Positions 2,285-27,842 are shown, counted from the first letter of the stretch. The stretch: DNA of 64,000 nt from an uncultured Chlorobiota bacterium (GCA_900696645.1 CAADGV010000026.1:69671-133670), one strand, 5' to 3'. Translations and numbers: made by a program. Notes: a model not told the origin generated them from the letters alone.

Positions 2285-3934
2285 TTACTTCATCAAGAGC
2301 ATCTTGCGCGTCGCAGAGAAACTGCCCGTTGTGAGACGGTAGAAATACACTCCGCTCGGCAGGTTACCGGCCTCAAACTGTACAGAATGCGTACCAGCCT
2401 CTTTCAATTCATTTGTCAGCGTCACAACTTCTTTTCCCAACACATCAAACACCTTCAATGAAACAAATTCGCGATTGGCAATCCGAAATTCGATATTCGT
2501 TGTTGGATTGAACGGGTTGGGGTAATTCTGAAACAACTCAAACGCCTCTGCCCGAGTATGCGGCTGAGGTTGTACGCCGGTAAGGAATCTATAGAAGCCA
2601 ATGGCAGTTCCATTTTCTCCGACTGCGCAACCCAGCCCCGCCGACTGTTCGCCTGTGAGGGAGAGATGATGCAGCTGAACAGTCCCTGCATATCCTTCAT
2701 ACTGAGTAATTGACCATGTCTCGCCGCTGTTCTGGCTGTTGTAAATATTCGTTCCTGATAGGGCCCAACATTCAGAAGGATACGTAAGTCCGGAAATTCC
2801 CATAACTGCCGCGGGGAGTGTTGATGCGTACTTGGTCCAGCCAACCCCGCCGTCAGTGGTACGATACACCGAGCCATCGGCCGATCCGGCAAGCCCGTAT
2901 AAATTGGGAAAGAAATGGATTGCCGTTATGCCCGAAGAGCCCGGTTGCAGAAATACTTTCGTCCAAGTCGATCCGCCATCGGTTGTTCGATACACTGCAT
3001 TGTCGCTCGTGCCGAACCAGCCGCGGGTCGAGTCAATCCACGCGGCGGCGTTGTAAAACCCGCTCTCACCGGCTGTGGCAGGGAGCGGAGGTTGAATGTC
3101 GATCCAACTAATCCCGCCATTCGTTGTCTTCTTCAATACCCAGAAACCGCTAACAGGGTCTCCGATTGCGTAACCTTTATTAGCGTTGACGAATCGGATT
3201 GACCTCCAAATGGTGGCGGTTGTGTCAACAACACTCCACGTTCTGCCCTCGTTTGTCGTTCTGCTGATTCTCGCACGACCGGACTGCATCACACTTCCTG
3301 CGACCGCGGTTCCGGGACCGAACTCTGAGCCACCTATCGTTATAGTCCGTACATCTCCTTCCAGAATACCGCATACTGTCCAGTGGATACCTATGTCGGT
3401 TGTTCTAATGACAATACCGTGTTTGCCGCCGGCCCAATATTCGGCAAAATATGGGGCATACCGTTTTGTTTGGACCGTATAGAGGGGGATATCCACCTCG
3501 CTCACATGAACTGTCCAGCCAATGTAGGGTCTGACGATGAAGCTCTTCACATCGTACAGTGACGGATTTGATTTCTGCGAGACGCGGATGTGGCAACTGT
3601 CGTTGATGGACCATGAGATAGTCCAGTAGTAGCGTCCCCGGATAATCGATCGGGTGAACTCATCCTCTTCTTCCAGATCTGAGAGAGAACCGGGAGCTTG
3701 CAGATTCGAGGGAACGCCCGGCGTTATGAGATTCCAAGGCCCACCTATTCCCGATGTCGAATACTCGATTTTCACGGTGTCAACACCGAACGCCGTCCAT
3801 TTTATCGGGTACGTGAAACCCATACTCCATTGCTCACCTCCTTTAGGGGAGATGAGTGTGAGAAATTGTTGCGCAGAGGCTGTTTGAGTCGCCAGAATCA
3901 ATATACATGTAAGAGCAGCAAGTTGTTTTTTCAT
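2285..3934 (-). CDS. Exported Ycf48/BNR-propeller protein with T9SS sorting domain
   Basis: The start is taken at the ATG at 3934, preceded by a GGGGGA Shine-Dalgarno and followed by a signal peptide (MKKQLAALTCILILATQTASAQ); the frame stays open upstream without a better start. An N-terminal beta-sandwich with the SPKGGEQW motif comes first. Repeats of the YRTTDGGSTW kind, shared by Ycf48 and Asp-box propellers, follow. The C-terminus is a T9SS type-A sorting domain: FQNYPNPFNP, LKVFDVLGKEV, then a terminal LPSGVYFYRL...KMLLMK. Such proteins cross the outer membrane by T9SS and are anchored or released. The sorting domain holds a heptanucleotide repeat tract (2466-2500). A 169-base gap separates it from the preceding cargo gene. 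Its substrate or role is unknown. Confidence 0.85.
   Translation of the reverse strand: MKKQLAALTCILILATQTASAQQFLTLISPKGGEQWSMGFTYPIKWTAFGVDTVKIEYSTSGIGGPWNLITPGVPSNLQAPGSLSDLEEEDEFTRSIIRGRYYWTISWSINDSCHIRVSQKSNPSLYDVKSFIVRPYIGWTVHVSEVDIPLYTVQTKRYAPYFAEYWAGGKHGIVIRTTDIGIHWTVCGILEGDVRTITIGGSEFGPGTAVAGSVMQSGRARISRTTNEGRTWSVVDTTATIWRSIRFVNANKGYAIGDPVSGFWVLKKTTNGGISWIDIQPPLPATAGESGFYNAAAWIDSTRGWFGTSDNAVYRTTDGGSTWTKVFLQPGSSGITAIHFFPNLYGLAGSADGSVYRTTDGGVGWTKYASTLPAAVMGISGLTYPSECWALSGTNIYNSQNSGETWSITQYEGYAGTVQLHHLSLTGEQSAGLGCAVGENGTAIGFYRFLTGVQPQPHTRAEAFELFQNYPNPFNPTTNIEFRIANREFVSLKVFDVLGKEVVTLTNELKEAGTHSVQFEAGNLPSGVYFYRLTTGSFSATRKMLLMK
2466..2500 (-). repeat. Heptanucleotide repeat tract in a T9SS sorting domain (AATCCGA/AATTCGA family)
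   Basis: Five 7-base units in tandem on the plus strand: AATTCGC, GATTGGC, AATCCGA, AATTCGA, TATTCGT. They encode the segment between the IEF and LKVFD parts of the sorting domain. Confidence 0.75.
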
Positions 3935-3946
3935 AGTAACTCCCCC

Positions 3947-3970
3947 GAGGCATGTTTTTCGGAATGCCTC
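3947..3970 (-). other. Leader hairpin just upstream of a T9SS cargo gene
   Basis: Seven-base arms GAGGCAT and ATGCCTC enclose a ten-base loop. It lies immediately before the Shine-Dalgarno of the gene starting at 3934, so it may affect messenger stability or access to the ribosome. It has no T tract and is not a convincing terminator. Confidence 0.35.
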
Positions 3971-4103
3971 CAATTTGCAGGCGTAGTAGGAATACGTCAA
4001 TTGGAAATTGATTAAACTATTTGGAAAGAACGGCATATCAAGCGTCAGATGTACACCCAGCCGGTGCACGCAGGCGGGCGAAGACCTTGCAGGCACGCCG
4101 GGT

Positions 4104-5669
4104 TTACCTGACCAGCATCATTTTGCGTGACTGCATTTGTGAACCTGCCGAAAGCCGGTACACATACACGCCGCTTGAAAGCCCAGATGCATCGAACCGA
4201 ACCGAATGTTCCTCCGCATTCTTTGCCTCATTCACTAAAGTCGCCACCTCCTGACCCAATATATCAAACACCTTCAATGAAACAAATCCGAAATTCGAAA
4301 TCCGAAATTCGATAGTCGTACTCGGATTGAAAGGATTGGGGTAGTTCTGGCTCAATGAAAATGCGGTTGGTATTGATCGTCCATCTACGGGAACGGATGT
4401 GCTCACGTAATTGGCAATCTCCAACCACGTTTGAGAGGTGCCGGTGCGTGTATCGGTCCAGATAGTCCAGGACTTGCCACCGAGGGCTGCAATTTCGCTG
4501 TTTGTGCTTGGAAAAAGCTGGCCGCCAGGGATCCCGATGCTTCCATAAGGCGACCGTACATCGCTGATGATCCACCGTTCCCAGGAATTCCCTCCGTCGG
4601 TTGAGCGGGCAGCGTACCGGTTTGTCATGAAGTTTGTTCCGGCAGAATCCATACTTGAATAACTGACGATGATGTCTCCGTTTGTTTGATCAACCGCAAT
4701 ACCCGGAAGCCATTGTTGCTTCTCGGGAGAAATAGGATAACTGCTTACCCGAATTGTGTCGCTCCACGTTGTCCCGCCATTGGTTGAGCGCCCTATGTAA
4801 ACGTTGGACTGACCCAGACTCCGGTCGGGGTAGCAGATGTAAATCCATCCTCGTCGCGGGCTATTTGAACGGTCGACATCCATGTGTGGGAAGCTGTTGA
4901 CTCGAGCGCCGTTGAATGCAGCCAAGCCGCCGTTGGAAATCCTCAAGCCTGATATCGGAAAGGCAACGGCGGGAGTACTGAACGTTGCCCCTGCATCCGT
5001 TGATCGTGTGAATCCGAGGCCGACCTCGGCCGTGCCCGTTGTGTAATGCGCCCACGTAACATTCACTTCGCCATTTGGGCCGACGGCGATGTACGCGCCC
5101 TGACCTCGATTTGAGCCTATGCCGAGAGATGTTCGTGCGCTCCACGTAACTCCATTATCCGTCGAGCGGGTGAAAACAACCGGTGATCCCGATACATTGA
5201 AATCAGTCCAAGCGGCGTACACGTTGTTAGGATATGTGCCCGAAGGATCTGCCGACGCATGAACGACATCGTTCAGTGTGCTGTTGAGCGGGTCGGCATT
5301 TGTGCGGGCACTCCACGTTGTCCCGAAGTCCGTTGTGCTGACGACATATATCCCGCCGGGATTACCGAGAGCGACATAATAGGCACGACCCCCGACATCA
5401 AAAAAACATACGGTGCCTCCATACGAATTGATTATCGGCGGTGGCGCTGATTCACTTCCGAACCATGTGTTGCCGCCATTGGTGCTGAAGGCCCAAACTC
5501 CAATACCCAAAACAGACATCAGGTTGTCACTGTTAGTCCAACTCACGGCCACCCGGGGATTGAATTGATGGCTTGTCGAGGGGAAGAGATGGACGTCGGG
5601 GTTGTTCTGCGGCTGTGCGTATGCCGTACACGCGACAAGCATTCCACAGAATGTGAGTCGAATGTTCAT
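4104..5669 (-). CDS. Exported Asp-box (sialidase-like) propeller protein with T9SS sorting domain
   Basis: The 521-residue product starts with a short signal peptide (MNIRLTFCGMLVACTAYAQ). It carries at least five Asp-box motifs of the form STxGGxTW (STNGGNTW, STDNGVTW, STDAGATF, STNGGTTW, STDGGNSW), the hallmark of sialidase-fold beta-propellers. I do not see a convincing arginine triad, so true sialidase activity is doubtful. The C-terminal T9SS type-A domain is complete (LSQNYPNPFNPSTTIEF, LKVFDILGQEVATL, SSGVYVYRL). The DNA of this domain contains four perfect 7-base units (4285-4312). It follows the upstream cargo gene by 8 bases, so they form one operon with the esterase gene further upstream. 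Confidence 0.85.
   Translation of the reverse strand: MNIRLTFCGMLVACTAYAQPQNNPDVHLFPSTSHQFNPRVAVSWTNSDNLMSVLGIGVWAFSTNGGNTWFGSESAPPPIINSYGGTVCFFDVGGRAYYVALGNPGGIYVVSTTDFGTTWSARTNADPLNSTLNDVVHASADPSGTYPNNVYAAWTDFNVSGSPVVFTRSTDNGVTWSARTSLGIGSNRGQGAYIAVGPNGEVNVTWAHYTTGTAEVGLGFTRSTDAGATFSTPAVAFPISGLRISNGGLAAFNGARVNSFPHMDVDRSNSPRRGWIYICYPDRSLGQSNVYIGRSTNGGTTWSDTIRVSSYPISPEKQQWLPGIAVDQTNGDIIVSYSSMDSAGTNFMTNRYAARSTDGGNSWERWIISDVRSPYGSIGIPGGQLFPSTNSEIAALGGKSWTIWTDTRTGTSQTWLEIANYVSTSVPVDGRSIPTAFSLSQNYPNPFNPSTTIEFRISNFGFVSLKVFDILGQEVATLVNEAKNAEEHSVRFDASGLSSGVYVYRLSAGSQMQSRKMMLVR
4285..4312 (-). repeat. Heptanucleotide repeat tract in a T9SS sorting domain, perfect units
   Basis: Four 7-base units alternate exactly: AATCCGA, AATTCGA, AATCCGA, AATTCGA. 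They lie at the same domain position as the tract at 2466 and share its units. Confidence 0.88.
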
Positions 5670-5677
5670 GATTATTC

Positions 5678-7174
5678 TTATTGAATGAGGATCATTTTCT
5701 TTGTCGAGACATACATTCCGGCCTCCAACCTGTAGTAATACACGCCGCTTGAGAGACCAGATGCATCGAACTGGACCGAATACTCACCGGCATTCTTGAC
5801 CTCATCAACCAACGTGGCAATCTCCCGCCCCAACACATCAAACACCTTGAGAGTAAGGTGGTTGATGGTTGGCAGTTGATAGTTGATGGTCGTGCTCGGG
5901 TTAAACGGATTGGGGTAGTTCTGGTATAGTGTGAAACCGCCTTCGACATTCGGAACGTCTTCTACTGCTGTTACTTCCGCTCCAAGCCGGAGCAGCCAAA
6001 CGTCATGTACACCTGCACCTCTTGAAAGAGTGTGTCCTGTTATGATATATCCCCCATCGGAAGTCCGGTCAAGAGAATGCGCAACATCCGAGGCGGTTCC
6101 ACCGTAGGTTGCGCTCCATTTCAAAACGCCCGCGGAGTCTGTCCTGACAATCCACACATCATCACCCCCCGAACCGAACGAAAGCGTGTATCCGGCAACG
6201 ATGTATCCTCCGTCGGCGGTTTGCTGCACGGCGTTGCCGTAATCCCTGCCGGTTCCGCCGAATGTTCTTGTCCACTGTTCGTTTCCTGCGCTGTCTGTTT
6301 TCACGAGCAACATGTCATCAAGTCCGGCTCCCGAGGAAGAGGTGTAGCCGGTCAGGATGTATCCTCCATCTGACGTTTGACGGGCGCTCAAGGCTCTGTC
6401 CACGTCTGTTCCGCCGAAGGCTTTGTTCCATGTTGCGTAACCCAGGGCATCGGTCTTTACGAGCCACGCGTTCCCTACTGCGCCGGGTCCGTAAGAGAAT
6501 GTCCAGCCTGAAAGGATGAAGCCGCTGTCTGACGTTGCGGATACCGATCGGGCACCGTCGGAACCGAGGCCCCCGAGGGCACGGCTCCATGTTTCGTTGC
6601 CAGAGGCATTCGTCTTGATGAGCCAGGCGTCTCTGCCGCCGGTGGCGAAGGATGATGTAGCTCCGGCAACAAGAAATCCTCCGTCCGCTGTCTCAAGAAC
6701 GCCGTAGGCTTCGTCATCCAGAGTTCCTCCGAACGTGCGTGTCCATTGGGCCGTTCCCACACTATCCGTCTTGATCAGAAAAACATCGTTTCCTCCCATC
6801 CCGAAGGATTTTGTGTAACCCGCTATGATATATCCCCCGTCGGAGGTTTGTTGCACCGCGTTCGCCTCATCGTCGTTGTTTCCGCCGTACGTTTGGTTCC
6901 ATTGCTCGGAGCCCGACGGAGAGACTTTGATGAGCCAAACATTGCGGCCGCTTGCTGTTCCAAACGAGCGTGTGTATCCGGCAATAATGTAGCCGCCATC
7001 CTGCGTTTGCCGGACTGCATGACCAATGTCGATGTTGGTTCCGCCAAATGTCCGTGTCCAGAGTGTGTCCGGAGATTGGGCGTTGAGAATCGGGAAATCC
7101 AACAAAATGATTGATAAGGAAATACCTGCTATGAAGGCCTTTCCTGAGATGAAGCGCAGGATGCTTGATTTCAT
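5678..7174 (-). CDS. Exported seven-repeat beta-propeller protein with T9SS sorting domain
   Basis: The ATG at 7174 is chosen because a long signal sequence follows directly (MKSSILRFISGKAFIAGISL...); the frame could be read from a TTG at 7210. After the signal come seven repeats of about 55 residues, each with W-x-RTFGG, a DGGYIIAGYT core and WLIKTDSAG, consistent with a seven-bladed propeller. No catalytic residues are evident. The final ~85 residues form a T9SS type-A sorting domain (LYQNYPNPFNPSTTINY, LKVFDVLGREIATLVDE, SSGVYYYRLEAG). A different heptanucleotide tract (5860-5887) lies in it. The gene sits 19 bases after the esterase gene and 8 bases before the Asp-box gene. Confidence 0.85.
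   Translation of the reverse strand: MKSSILRFISGKAFIAGISLSIILLDFPILNAQSPDTLWTRTFGGTNIDIGHAVRQTQDGGYIIAGYTRSFGTASGRNVWLIKVSPSGSEQWNQTYGGNNDDEANAVQQTSDGGYIIAGYTKSFGMGGNDVFLIKTDSVGTAQWTRTFGGTLDDEAYGVLETADGGFLVAGATSSFATGGRDAWLIKTNASGNETWSRALGGLGSDGARSVSATSDSGFILSGWTFSYGPGAVGNAWLVKTDALGYATWNKAFGGTDVDRALSARQTSDGGYILTGYTSSSGAGLDDMLLVKTDSAGNEQWTRTFGGTGRDYGNAVQQTADGGYIVAGYTLSFGSGGDDVWIVRTDSAGVLKWSATYGGTASDVAHSLDRTSDGGYIITGHTLSRGAGVHDVWLLRLGAEVTAVEDVPNVEGGFTLYQNYPNPFNPSTTINYQLPTINHLTLKVFDVLGREIATLVDEVKNAGEYSVQFDASGLSSGVYYYRLEAGMYVSTKKMILIQ
5860..5887 (-). repeat. Heptanucleotide repeat tract in a T9SS sorting domain (GGTTGAT/AGTTGAT family)
   Basis: Four units: GGTTGAT, GGTTGGC, AGTTGAT, AGTTGAT. Same domain position as the other tracts, with a different unit sequence. 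Confidence 0.82.
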
Positions 7175-7193
7175 GTGTGACACTTCATAACCC

Positions 7194-8645
7194 CTATTTT
7201 TGGAGAACAAATTTCTTTGTAATAGAATGGGCTCCCGCCGTTAACCGATAGAAGTAGGTGCCGCTCGCCAAACCGCTTGCCAAGCCATCTGCTACGAACC
7301 GGGCAGAATGTTCTCCGGGTCCTTTCACTTCATTGACCAGTGTTGCCACCTCTCTGCCGAGTACATCATACACCTTGAGTGTTACTTGGCTGATTGCTGA
7401 AAGGCGATAGCTGATTGACGTACCCGGATTAAAAGGGTTCGGATAGTTCTGGAACAGCGCAAAACCATCCGGAAGCAGGCCTGTTTCTGTCACCGAGACG
7501 GGAGTGGCAGGGAAGAACATCTCCAACGCATTATCAACGTGAGCCCGCCAGTTGCCCCAACTGTGTCCTTCATGATATTCGTTGTATTGGTAGATGTAGC
7601 CCTTCGTTTGCAGTATCGGGATGAAGTTGCGTACGAGGGGAATCAGTTGGGGAATATCGTACGTGCCGAGGTCGAGATAGAGTTTCAAATCCAATCGCGG
7701 ATTATTCTGGAATCCTGAGGAAATCGAAGAGATGATGTTGCTCGACTGAGCGGCGACATTCCCGAACACATTCGAGTGATTGAGTCCGAGCCACAACGCA
7801 ATGTTTCCTCCGTTTGATGCTCCGAGCGTCGCTCTGCTTTCAGGATGGCGTCGTGTTCTGTATCGCGCATCGATGTATGGCATCAACTCGTTTACGATGA
7901 ACGAGGAGAATGCAACCATCTGATTACCCGCGTACTCAGCAGTCCGGTTTACCGGAGGGACAAACACGCCGATGACCGGCTTGATCCGATTGTGATGGAT
8001 GAGATAGTCGAGAACGTTGTTTGCCTGGGCGAGCGTCACGTATTCGAGTCCGTCATGAAACACCATAACGCCGAAACTGTCGGATGATGCTTCATAGCCG
8101 GGCGGTGTGTAGATGCGGATTGTTCGTGAGTTGTTTAGATTGGTTGAAAAGAATGTCGTATCGCGCAGCGTTCCGTGCGGGATATTGGGATAGTAAATGA
8201 TTTCCGGGGCCGGCACGTAATGAGGCAAGCGCAGCTCGGAGTTTGGTCCGAACCCGCCCGATACTGTAAACGGATTTCTGGGATCGAGTATCCACGTGCT
8301 GCCGTTGAGAACGAACTTGTAATCGAGTCGTGCATCCGGTTCATACGTTTCCGACCGGTACCACAAATCCGTTGTGGAAAGTCTCGTCATCGGCAGAGCG
8401 GAAATTGTCCAGTTGTTGGCGTCGCCCGGAACCGTGACAGAACTTGCGGATCCACGATAAACGAAATGCACGTTTGTTGTCCCTTCGATCAAAGGGAACG
8501 TTCCAACGGCATTCATGAAGCTATCCACGATTGCCGGGCGTTGACCTTCAGGCGCTGAACTGACTCGAAGGATGAAATCCTGAAACGTCTGGGCAAATGA
8601 CGATACGGATAGGAATAACAGGTTTAGTAGAATGGCAAATCTCAT
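7194..8645 (-). CDS. Exported esterase (Fes/IroE-like alpha/beta hydrolase) with CBM48-like and T9SS domains
   Basis: A signal peptide (1-19) precedes a CBM48-like beta-sandwich (about 55-140, with VPGDANNW and DARLDYKFVLNG) and an esterase domain of the enterochelin-esterase type (about 155-375). The nucleophile elbow GASNGG places the serine at 277, and the catalytic histidine is probably H361 in HEGHSW. The C-terminus is a T9SS type-A sorting domain (FQNYPNPFNPGTSISY, LKVYDVLGREVATLV, SGTYFYRLTAG). Two paralogues at 60.3 and 61.5 kb lack this domain. It is first in a three-gene operon. In this family substrates include siderophore, acetyl-xylan and feruloyl esters; the one here is unknown. 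A heptanucleotide tract lies at 7388-7415. Confidence 0.85.
   Translation of the reverse strand: MRFAILLNLLFLSVSSFAQTFQDFILRVSSAPEGQRPAIVDSFMNAVGTFPLIEGTTNVHFVYRGSASSVTVPGDANNWTISALPMTRLSTTDLWYRSETYEPDARLDYKFVLNGSTWILDPRNPFTVSGGFGPNSELRLPHYVPAPEIIYYPNIPHGTLRDTTFFSTNLNNSRTIRIYTPPGYEASSDSFGVMVFHDGLEYVTLAQANNVLDYLIHHNRIKPVIGVFVPPVNRTAEYAGNQMVAFSSFIVNELMPYIDARYRTRRHPESRATLGASNGGNIALWLGLNHSNVFGNVAAQSSNIISSISSGFQNNPRLDLKLYLDLGTYDIPQLIPLVRNFIPILQTKGYIYQYNEYHEGHSWGNWRAHVDNALEMFFPATPVSVTETGLLPDGFALFQNYPNPFNPGTSISYRLSAISQVTLKVYDVLGREVATLVNEVKGPGEHSARFVADGLASGLASGTYFYRLTAGAHSITKKFVLQK
7388..7415 (-). repeat. Heptanucleotide repeat tract in a T9SS sorting domain (GGCTGAT family)
   Basis: Four units: GGCTGAT, TGCTGAA, AGGCGAT, AGCTGAT. 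Same domain position again, with a third unit family. Confidence 0.72.
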
Positions 8646-26738: not shown

Positions 26739-27842
26739 TCAGATTGCCCGTTCAGTAGCCTTTTCAAAGAAATGAACCTTCGACGTATCGAAGAACATCT
26801 CGAATGGTTTACCGACTTCAGGAGGCGTGTCTGTGGCAATGCGCGCAACGTACTGTGAATCTGTGCCTGTGGAGAAGTAAACAAAAATCTCGTTCCCAAC
26901 AGGTTCAACTACTTCAACAGTTACTTTGAATGACGACACGCTTTCCACACCGGAAGGCCGCTGGGCATAAATATGTTCCGGGCGAATTCCTAATGTGATT
27001 TGGGATTTGATATGAGATTTGAGTTTCTGTTCTTTCCCGGGAACGACAGGTAATGCGAAGTTCGAACGTTCCTGCAGAAACCGCAGCGAGCCGTTCTGGA
27101 CGATTGTTCCCTGAATGAAATTCATCGTCGGGCTGCCGATAAAGCCTGCGACGAATTTGTTGGCAGGATGATGGTAGAGGGCAAGCGGCGCATCGACTTG
27201 CTGCACGATTCCGTCTTTCATCACAACAATTCTATCTCCCATGCTCATCGCTTCGATTTGATCGTGCGTAACGTAGATCATTGTGCTTTGCAACTGGCGA
27301 TGAAGCCTCGATATTTCCGTGCGCATGTGAACACGCAGATTGGCATCAAGGTTACTCAGGGGCTCATCAAACAGAAATACTTTCGGCTGACGTACAATTG
27401 CGCGGCCGAGAGCAACACGCTGGCGTTGCCCGCCGGAAAGTGCTTTCGGTTTCCGTTCAAGATACTGTTCGATGCCGAGAATCTTTGCCGCTTTGCGAAC
27501 ACGTGACTCGATTTCCTGCTTGTCATACTTTCGCAACTTCAATCCGAAGGCGAGATTCTCATACACACTCATATGAGGGTAGAGGGCATAGTTTTGGAAC
27601 ACCATCGCGATATCCCGGTCTTTCGGTGCAACATCGTTCACAACTTTACCGTCGATGCTGATTGTCCCTTTCGAAATCTCCTCCAACCCTGCTATCATGC
27701 GAAGTGCCGTGGACTTTCCGCAACCGGAAGGGCCGACAAGTACGACAAACTCTTTGTCTTGAATCGTGAGATTGACATCCTTCACGGCAGTGACTTTGCC
27801 TTCGTAAACTTTGTGTACGTTTTCGAGCTTCACTTCAGCCAT
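26739..27842 (-). CDS. ABC transporter ATPase of the MalK/UgpC type
   Basis: The ATG at 27842 has AAGG upstream. The 367-residue protein is the energy subunit of a sugar importer: Walker A GPSGCGKST (37-45), Q-loop Q83, signature LSGGQ (135-139), Walker B VFLFDE (155-160), THDQ switch histidine, and a C-terminal TOBE/OB regulatory domain (about 240-365, with SPTMNF and LGIRPEH). No permease lies beside it; MalE, MalF and MalG are 27 kb away, and this ATPase is the likely partner, as in genomes with a shared MsmK/UgpC ATPase. A heptanucleotide tract (26994-27028) sits between two parts of the C-terminal domain. A promoter with a degenerate LacI operator lies upstream. Confidence 0.92.
   Translation of the reverse strand: MAEVKLENVHKVYEGKVTAVKDVNLTIQDKEFVVLVGPSGCGKSTALRMIAGLEEISKGTISIDGKVVNDVAPKDRDIAMVFQNYALYPHMSVYENLAFGLKLRKYDKQEIESRVRKAAKILGIEQYLERKPKALSGGQRQRVALGRAIVRQPKVFLFDEPLSNLDANLRVHMRTEISRLHRQLQSTMIYVTHDQIEAMSMGDRIVVMKDGIVQQVDAPLALYHHPANKFVAGFIGSPTMNFIQGTIVQNGSLRFLQERSNFALPVVPGKEQKLKSHIKSQITLGIRPEHIYAQRPSGVESVSSFKVTVEVVEPVGNEIFVYFSTGTDSQYVARIATDTPPEVGKPFEMFFDTSKVHFFEKATERAI
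26994..27028 (-). repeat. Heptanucleotide repeat tract inside the ABC ATPase gene
   Basis: Five 7-base units in tandem read, on the plus strand, TGTGATT, TGGGATT, TGATATG, AGATTTG, AGTTTCT, with a shared TGAT/GATT core. They encode the segment KLKSHIKSQI of the C-terminal domain, ahead of TLGIRPEH, and look inserted in a variable loop. Degenerate units make this less sure than the sorting-domain tracts. Confidence 0.5.

Follow-up and report, generated by a model that had tools for sequence, protein, structure and literature searches.

Degenerate heptanucleotide tracts at one β-hairpin of type IX secretion sorting domains: probable copies of the genome's own heptamer arrays

The Rickettsia palindromic elements are palindromic insertions of roughly 100–150 bp that lie in frame within many proteins (compare PMC2996958 and PMC2229807). 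Bacterial heptanucleotide repeats, among them the short tandemly repeated repetitive (STRR) sequences of cyanobacteria and the heptameric repeats of Xanthomonas and Nostoc (PMC4692102), are built of 7-base units in short head-to-tail arrays, occur many times per genome and are scattered across phyla (PMC4679880). They are mainly intergenic, with 10 sets described inside open reading frames, in reverse orientation (PMC4679880). The TAACTGA repeats of the Beggiatoaceae are likewise scattered over phyla; their horizontal transmission has been suggested although no mechanism is apparent, and the mobile component may be a protein that binds the repeat (PMC4679880). Here, heptamer tracts are described in the sorting domains of the type IX secretion system (T9SS), starting from four adjacent genes in a 64,000-nucleotide stretch (the window, meaning the whole stretch analysed) from an uncultured Chlorobiota bacterium (GCA_900696645.1, CAADGV010000026.1:69671-133670). 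As with the Rickettsia elements, a small repeat appears to spread repeatedly and in frame to tolerated coding places, but these tracts are 25–40 bp long, are mostly length-neutral replacements and occupy one position of one domain. With the known heptamers they share the unit, the arrangement, the abundance and the scattered distribution; in contrast to these, however, approximately one-third of the strong tracts lie in frame at a single structural position of a single domain, and some of the arrays make up the inverted arms of a gene element.

The genome holding the window (G000, contigs prefixed C) comprises 4.21 Mb in 46 contigs, is 100% complete and encodes at least 150 T9SS type A sorting domains, whose best named matches are mainly from the Ignavibacteria, as well as Chlorobiota, KSB1, Kryptoniota and similar groups. 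A sample of 2.39 Mb (57% of the genome; 51% GC), taken as stretches, was searched with a profile built in this analysis, which found 120 of the domains; all tract counts for this genome refer to that sample. Tracts were scored by autocorrelation at lag 7, with +1 for each base identical to the base seven positions further on and −1 for each mismatch. This score was adopted because both an exact-repeat search with a harsh mismatch penalty and Tandem Repeats Finder overlooked most of the degenerate tracts. A score of at least 12 denotes a strong tract anywhere in the sequence and a score of at least 9 a tract-positive linker, the linker being the stretch between the NPFNPxTxI and VxLKVYD motifs of the sorting domain.

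At lag 7, the linker scores 9 or more in 20 of the 120 domains, against 0–1 domains at lags 4–6 and 8–13. The 2.39 Mb hold 41 strong tracts, and 13 of these lie inside sorting-domain linkers, which make up only about 4 kb, or 0.17%, of the sequence (binomial P ~1e-26). Over the same 2.39 Mb, no linker holds a tract scoring at least 12 at periods 5, 6, 8, 9, 10, 11 or 13, and a first-order Markov sequence of equal size contains no period-7 tract that reaches this score. A general excess of short periods is thus ruled out, as other lags show no such linker signal. Synonymous-codon resampling yields an expected 1.6 tract domains, and never more than 5 over 300 runs; for codon shuffling within alignment columns the expectation is 0.5 and the maximum 3, compared with the 20 observed. 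The concentration recurs in a congeneric genome (G001), where 10 of 75 domains carry a linker tract, as well as in 16 of 159 domains at 80 loci of other organisms (0–2 at other lags). Whether such units occur in the linker more often than by chance, the question on which the original sequence-only reading had staked its interpretation, is therefore answered in the positive for the window's genome, the congeneric genome and the 80 other loci. The other outcome that this reading had named as refuting it, codon-level conservation of the segments across distant homologues, was not borne out either.

The linker tracts are degenerate, with 3–5 units each, and their coverage is limited to codons 8–26 counted from the first N, codons 13–17 being covered in 20 of 20 tracts. 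Seven-base repeats do not keep frame and would be expected to be absent from genes, yet about one-sixth of the sorting domains bear one at the same structural position, as do roughly one-tenth in other genomes. At least six different heptamer families occupy this one point, which bears out the earlier observation of several families there. That observation was drawn from tracts in all four window domains, of which three are strong (Table 1) whereas the fourth is not separable from background by itself; its register and CAGCTAT-like unit are nevertheless consistent with those of the linker tracts.

In 38 of 46 tracts the units share a single register, C-R-N-N-T-N-N, whose C recurs at intervals of seven bases starting at position 28 (positions 0 mod 7, counted from the first N). 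This register translates to [FY]-[QR]-[ILM]-[PS], and because this is the sorting domain's own motif, the register is that which selection would keep. The gene 2 domain is modeled as an all-β fold of seven strands (mean predicted local distance difference test score, pLDDT, 92.6), on which the tract would span the end of a strand at residues 9–15, a turn at 16–19 and the start of a strand at 20–28. The sorting domain matches solved T9SS domains by sequence (8glj and 8glk) and by fold (8glk, 8qb1 and 5m11 among others), the structure search otherwise returning mostly unrelated immunoglobulin folds. Standard linker length is kept in 16 of the 20 tract domains of the window's genome. The tracts overwrite a strand–turn–strand hairpin, usually in a length-neutral manner, and replacement is far commoner than insertion. 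The linker was earlier called permissive, which holds insofar as many sequences are tolerated, although mostly in one length and one register. In the congeneric genome, a 7-residue (21 nt) linker insertion, IPARP[TA]GGAN, adjoins a heptamer tract at L171:2790 and L182:2212.

Several observations bear on how the tracts arose. Linker scores are bimodal: counts for values of 8 or less match the null or come close to it, with slightly too many at 6 in the window's genome, and a clear excess sets in at 9, which suggests acquisition in one step. Paralogues were compared as standard-length pairs with at least 72% identity in the rest of the domain. Linker identity is 0.88 between tract-free pairs (n = 49) and 0.92 between pairs with tracts of the same family (n = 5), but falls to 0.44–0.46 where one member lacks the tract or carries another family (n = 7; P = 0.007). 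The rest of the domain is approximately 0.75 identical in these mismatched pairs, giving a linker-to-rest ratio of about 0.6, as opposed to 1.03 for tract-free pairs. The clearest case is found in the congeneric genome, where the adjacent paralogues L178:11271 (no tract) and L178:12728 (CAAATAC tract) are 0.88 identical outside the linker but 0.46 within it, with no difference in length. A 352-domain tree built without the linkers requires at least 32 switches of tract state (gains and losses together), compared with 42.6 for shuffled labels; the state is partly inherited and often new. Furthermore, the 20 tracts of the window's genome fit the other arrays of that genome (18.5) better than those of other genomes (12.75; P = 2.5e-4) or shuffled arrays (8.9). 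Repeated capture at one tolerant position, as originally proposed, is upheld by the family count, the tree changes, the bimodal scores and this likeness to own-genome arrays.

There are also signs that genes exchange entire sorting domains. Matching by protein body gave 38 reciprocal best pairs between the window's genome and its congener, 29 of them at least 75% identical. Within this set of 29, identity over the rest of the domain is 0.64 for tract-bearing pairs (n = 6) and 0.90 for the others (n = 23; P = 0.002), with no such difference in the 60 residues that precede the domain (0.85 against 0.88; P = 0.29). At C30:142216, identity drops within the domain and recovers downstream.

Arrays of the same families are also present between genes and at contig ends. 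CAAATYC arrays were found in 23 of 60 genomes and TCTGACY arrays in 30 of 148, sporadically among relatives and across the phylum, with reversed control patterns almost silent. An inverted partner lies within 700 bp of 17 of 96 tracts outside the sorting domains, and in 0 shuffled flanks. None of the linker tracts has an inverted partner within this distance, and the notion that they are themselves S23 insertions (described below) was rejected on this ground. The array at C7:149161 has the unit TTGGTCA, which is that of STRR2. Near-perfect, identical (AATCAGA)18 arrays end two contigs (C24:222912-223038 and C33:1-127), which are probably neighbours split by a long heptamer array, since both ends carry it. 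In a Calditrichaceae metagenome-assembled genome, arrays at L265 11821-11881 and 13441-13514 pass into their own reverse complement within approximately 70 bp and so form long hairpins.

Some of the inverted pairs, spaced about 360–510 bp apart, enclose a gene for a four-helix-bundle protein (C24:188175-188645, C24:189957-190511, L147 and L148). The protein is the 23S rRNA intervening-sequence protein (TIGR02436, with PF05635 confirmed for the one tested), hereafter S23. The intervening sequence of Coxiella is 428 nt long with a 28-bp terminal stem, and has been termed a selfish element of unclear origin (PMC4990558). The elements described here resemble such sequences in their length (approximately 400–500 bp), their S23 reading frame and their terminal inverted repeats of about 30 bp, but differ in that most copies lie outside rRNA genes and have heptamer arrays for arms. 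PF05635 also resembles Avd, the accessory protein of diversity-generating retroelements (PMC10053308); S23 protein and Avd are related four-helix bundles, while with the present elements no reverse transcriptase or template repeat was seen, no search being aimed at them. S23 genes number seven in the window's genome and are present in 47 of 60 relatives. Three of the seven copies have a lag-7 score of at least 10 alongside, and four have inverted repeats. The best match of the gene 3 tract among the other arrays of its genome is the left arm of the element at C24:189957. The two elements on contig C24 (L285 and L286) have CAAATYC and TTGATNG arms and are separated by a UDP-sugar dehydrogenase gene.

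A set of 22 S23 genes was assembled from plasmid records, mostly cyanobacterial, with selection by protein and not by repeat. Lag-7 arms flank 16 of the 22 and inverted repeats 18, in a set that includes near-relatives and a few loci with 8-base units. For 73 control genes from two Nostoc plasmids, the corresponding counts are 12 and 1, the latter an insertion sequence (Fisher P 1.6e-6 and 1e-14, respectively), and 2000 random placements gave 107 and 3. On plasmid AZO_p2 of Azospirillum lipoferum (L304 1-1443), an S23 element interrupts a 23S rRNA gene, as a classical intervening sequence does, and has heptamer arrays (GAGGACGGATGACAGAGGACGG...) for arms. It is the only one of nine scanned S23 loci to lie in large-subunit rRNA, where 0 of three scanned copies from the window's genome are located. 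A scan of viral contigs with a single S23 protein as the query returned no match. Elements of this kind are tiny, probably mobile, and occur in several phyla of bacteria. The earlier description of the heptamers as mobile gains indirect support from the similar arrays that form arms of S23/IVP elements, although most arrays are unpaired.

The linker tracts are probably copies of the genome's own degenerate heptamer arrays that overwrite one β-hairpin of T9SS type A sorting domains. An array, either intergenic or the arm of an S23 element, could act as donor through ectopic template switching or gene conversion. Entry would be eased by an existing likeness, since several positions of the [FY]-[QR]-[ILM]-[PS] codons agree with a C-R-N-N-T-N-N array in the correct register. 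Only stop-free copies still able to form the hairpin would then be retained by selection, and accepted copies would pile up across the at least 150 domains of a genome and spread further through whole-domain exchange between genes. The S23/IVP elements may be one source that seeds and spreads arrays. More tentatively, it is conceivable that the heptamer arrays of cyanobacteria and other bacteria are arms, or solo arms, of mobile Avd-like S23 elements, recopied into the T9SS hairpins of Ignavibacteria and their relatives as a continuing source of variation for the sorting signals of surface proteins. That so many sorting domains bear a tract at one structural position shows protein sequence being written at a defined spot by a process acting on the DNA, to which a plausible source can be linked. 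The association of heptamer arms with S23 makes the question of heptamer transmission directly testable and offers a new angle on the unexplained S23 protein; a literature search, with most subscription papers outside its reach, found no paper that links heptamers to type IX secretion or to S23, PF05635 or four-helix-bundle proteins.

A number of observations weigh against copying from genomic arrays. The before-and-after contrast is clear in one pair only, and transfer itself was not observed directly. Few paralogues could be compared (7 tract-mismatched against 49 tract-free pairs) and their pairs are not independent, while the orthologue test has six tract pairs and faster evolution of some domains could give the same result. 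The orthologue pair at C33:210052 resembles gradual change, shared base composition partly accounts for the own-genome match, and a few domains with long linkers (34–38 residues), together with the GGTCAAT tracts of L233, resemble insertions rather than replacements. Finally, only a minority of the arrays outside the domains are paired, of which some enclose an S23 gene, and most arrays are solitary.

Growth in place would require no outside donor: the codons of I-x-[FY]-[QR]-[IL]-[PS] would by chance form an imperfect 7-base repeat, which slippage and realignment then perfect and extend. The register, nearly always that of the motif, and the usually unaltered linker length agree with this origin, as does a proposal, cited in PMC4679880, that seven bases suit polymerase slippage. 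Growth of this kind is nonetheless rather doubtful, given that intermediate scores show little excess, that the tracts are similar to the genome's other arrays and that close paralogues differ by a full tract. A signal for recombination, promoting the exchange of sorting domains and retained for that role, seems an unlikely identity for the tract; although exchange or divergence marks those orthologue pairs that bear tracts, no sharp joint falls at the tract, and exchange or divergence also takes place without one (C24:18819 and C12:90394).

Near-copies such as C9:359 with C9:13759, and the L183 pair, are as expected if one ancient tract-bearing domain had been copied by gene duplication and conversion, and the tree changes are indeed fewer than for shuffled labels. 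Spread from one ancestor was rejected, however, on the number of families at the same point and the 32 changes on the tree, and with independent families in distant phyla such descent is very improbable. Least credible is convergence at the protein level, whereby the DNA would seem 7-periodic because an alternating strand pattern is selected in the protein. The motif alone does yield a few lag-7 matches, and synonymous resampling retains 1.6 of the 20 tracts, but the observed number far exceeds both nulls and the same kinds of array occur outside genes. At the observed effect size, protein-level coincidence alone is refuted by the synonymous-codon and column-shuffle nulls.

The window features are collected in Table 1. 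Each of the four gene products has a T9SS type A sorting domain at its extreme C-terminus, with TIGR04183 scores of 44–50 bits against a cut-off of 23 and matches to PF18962, and passage of these products through the T9SS as cargo is predicted from their sequences.

Table 1. Genes, sorting domains and heptamer tracts of the window (positions counted from its first nucleotide)
Feature	Position	Strand	Remarks
Gene 1, secreted protein with Ycf48/BNR-like repeats and C-terminal T9SS sorting domain	2285..4096	-	start probably internal; secretion predicted
Gene 1 sorting domain, NYPNPFNPTTNIEFRIANREFVSLKVFDVLG...	2288..2527	-	TIGR04183 E 3e-13
Heptamer tract 1, coding unit CGAATNT (AATTCGA/AATCCGA family)	2467..2504	-	lag-7 score 13
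Gene 2, BNR-repeat secreted protein with sorting domain	4104..5669	-	secretion predicted
Gene 2 sorting domain, ...TTIEFRISNFGFVSLKVFDILG...	4107..4346	-	TIGR04183 E 2.5e-13; structure model mean pLDDT 92.6
Heptamer tract 2, coding (TTTCGRA)n; AATTCGA/AATCCGA in the sequence-only reading	4284..4318	-	lag-7 score 18, cleanest of the window
Gene 3, delta-60/SBBP-like repeat protein with sorting domain	5678..7210	-	start probably internal
Gene 3 sorting domain, ...TTINYQLPTINHLTLKVFDVLG...	5681..5920	-	TIGR04183 E 1.5e-11
Heptamer tract 3, coding (CAACYAT)n, GTTGATG	5859..5890	-	lag-7 score 13
Gene 4, esterase (PF00756) with sorting domain	7194..8645	-	Pfam
Gene 4 sorting domain, ...TSISYRLSAISQVTLKVYDVLG...	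7197..7448	-	TIGR04183 E 1.1e-12
Weak tract 4, read as GGCTGAT	7388..7415	-	lag-7 score 6, within background by itself
Degenerate heptamer tract in MalK-type ABC ATPase, near start of TOBE region	26994..27026	-	Pfam

A few heptamer tracts also fall within ordinary genes, where they occupy variable stretches of conserved proteins, so that the linker is the main tract site and not the sole one. In addition to the MalK-type ATPase of the window, which was assigned by Pfam, degenerate tracts lie at apparently variable places within conserved cytoplasmic proteins at C33:1000, C45:32649, C9:12408 and C7:24929, the hosts being identified by eye as an aminotransferase, a cysteine desulfurase, a GltD-like protein and an amidohydrolase. 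Among the plasmid S23 elements, those of four Nostocales loci (L302, L303, L308 and L309) have arms seemingly of 8-base units, of the CCCCTGCT type. Plasmid pNe_5 of Nostoc edaphicum (L300) carries an S23 element with (AGTAGGG)n arms between the genes for the beta and alpha subunits of ribonucleotide reductase, and on plasmid pANA02 of Anabaena sp. 90 (L311) an element with long ACAGGTG arms lies between cas6 and cas4 of a CRISPR locus.

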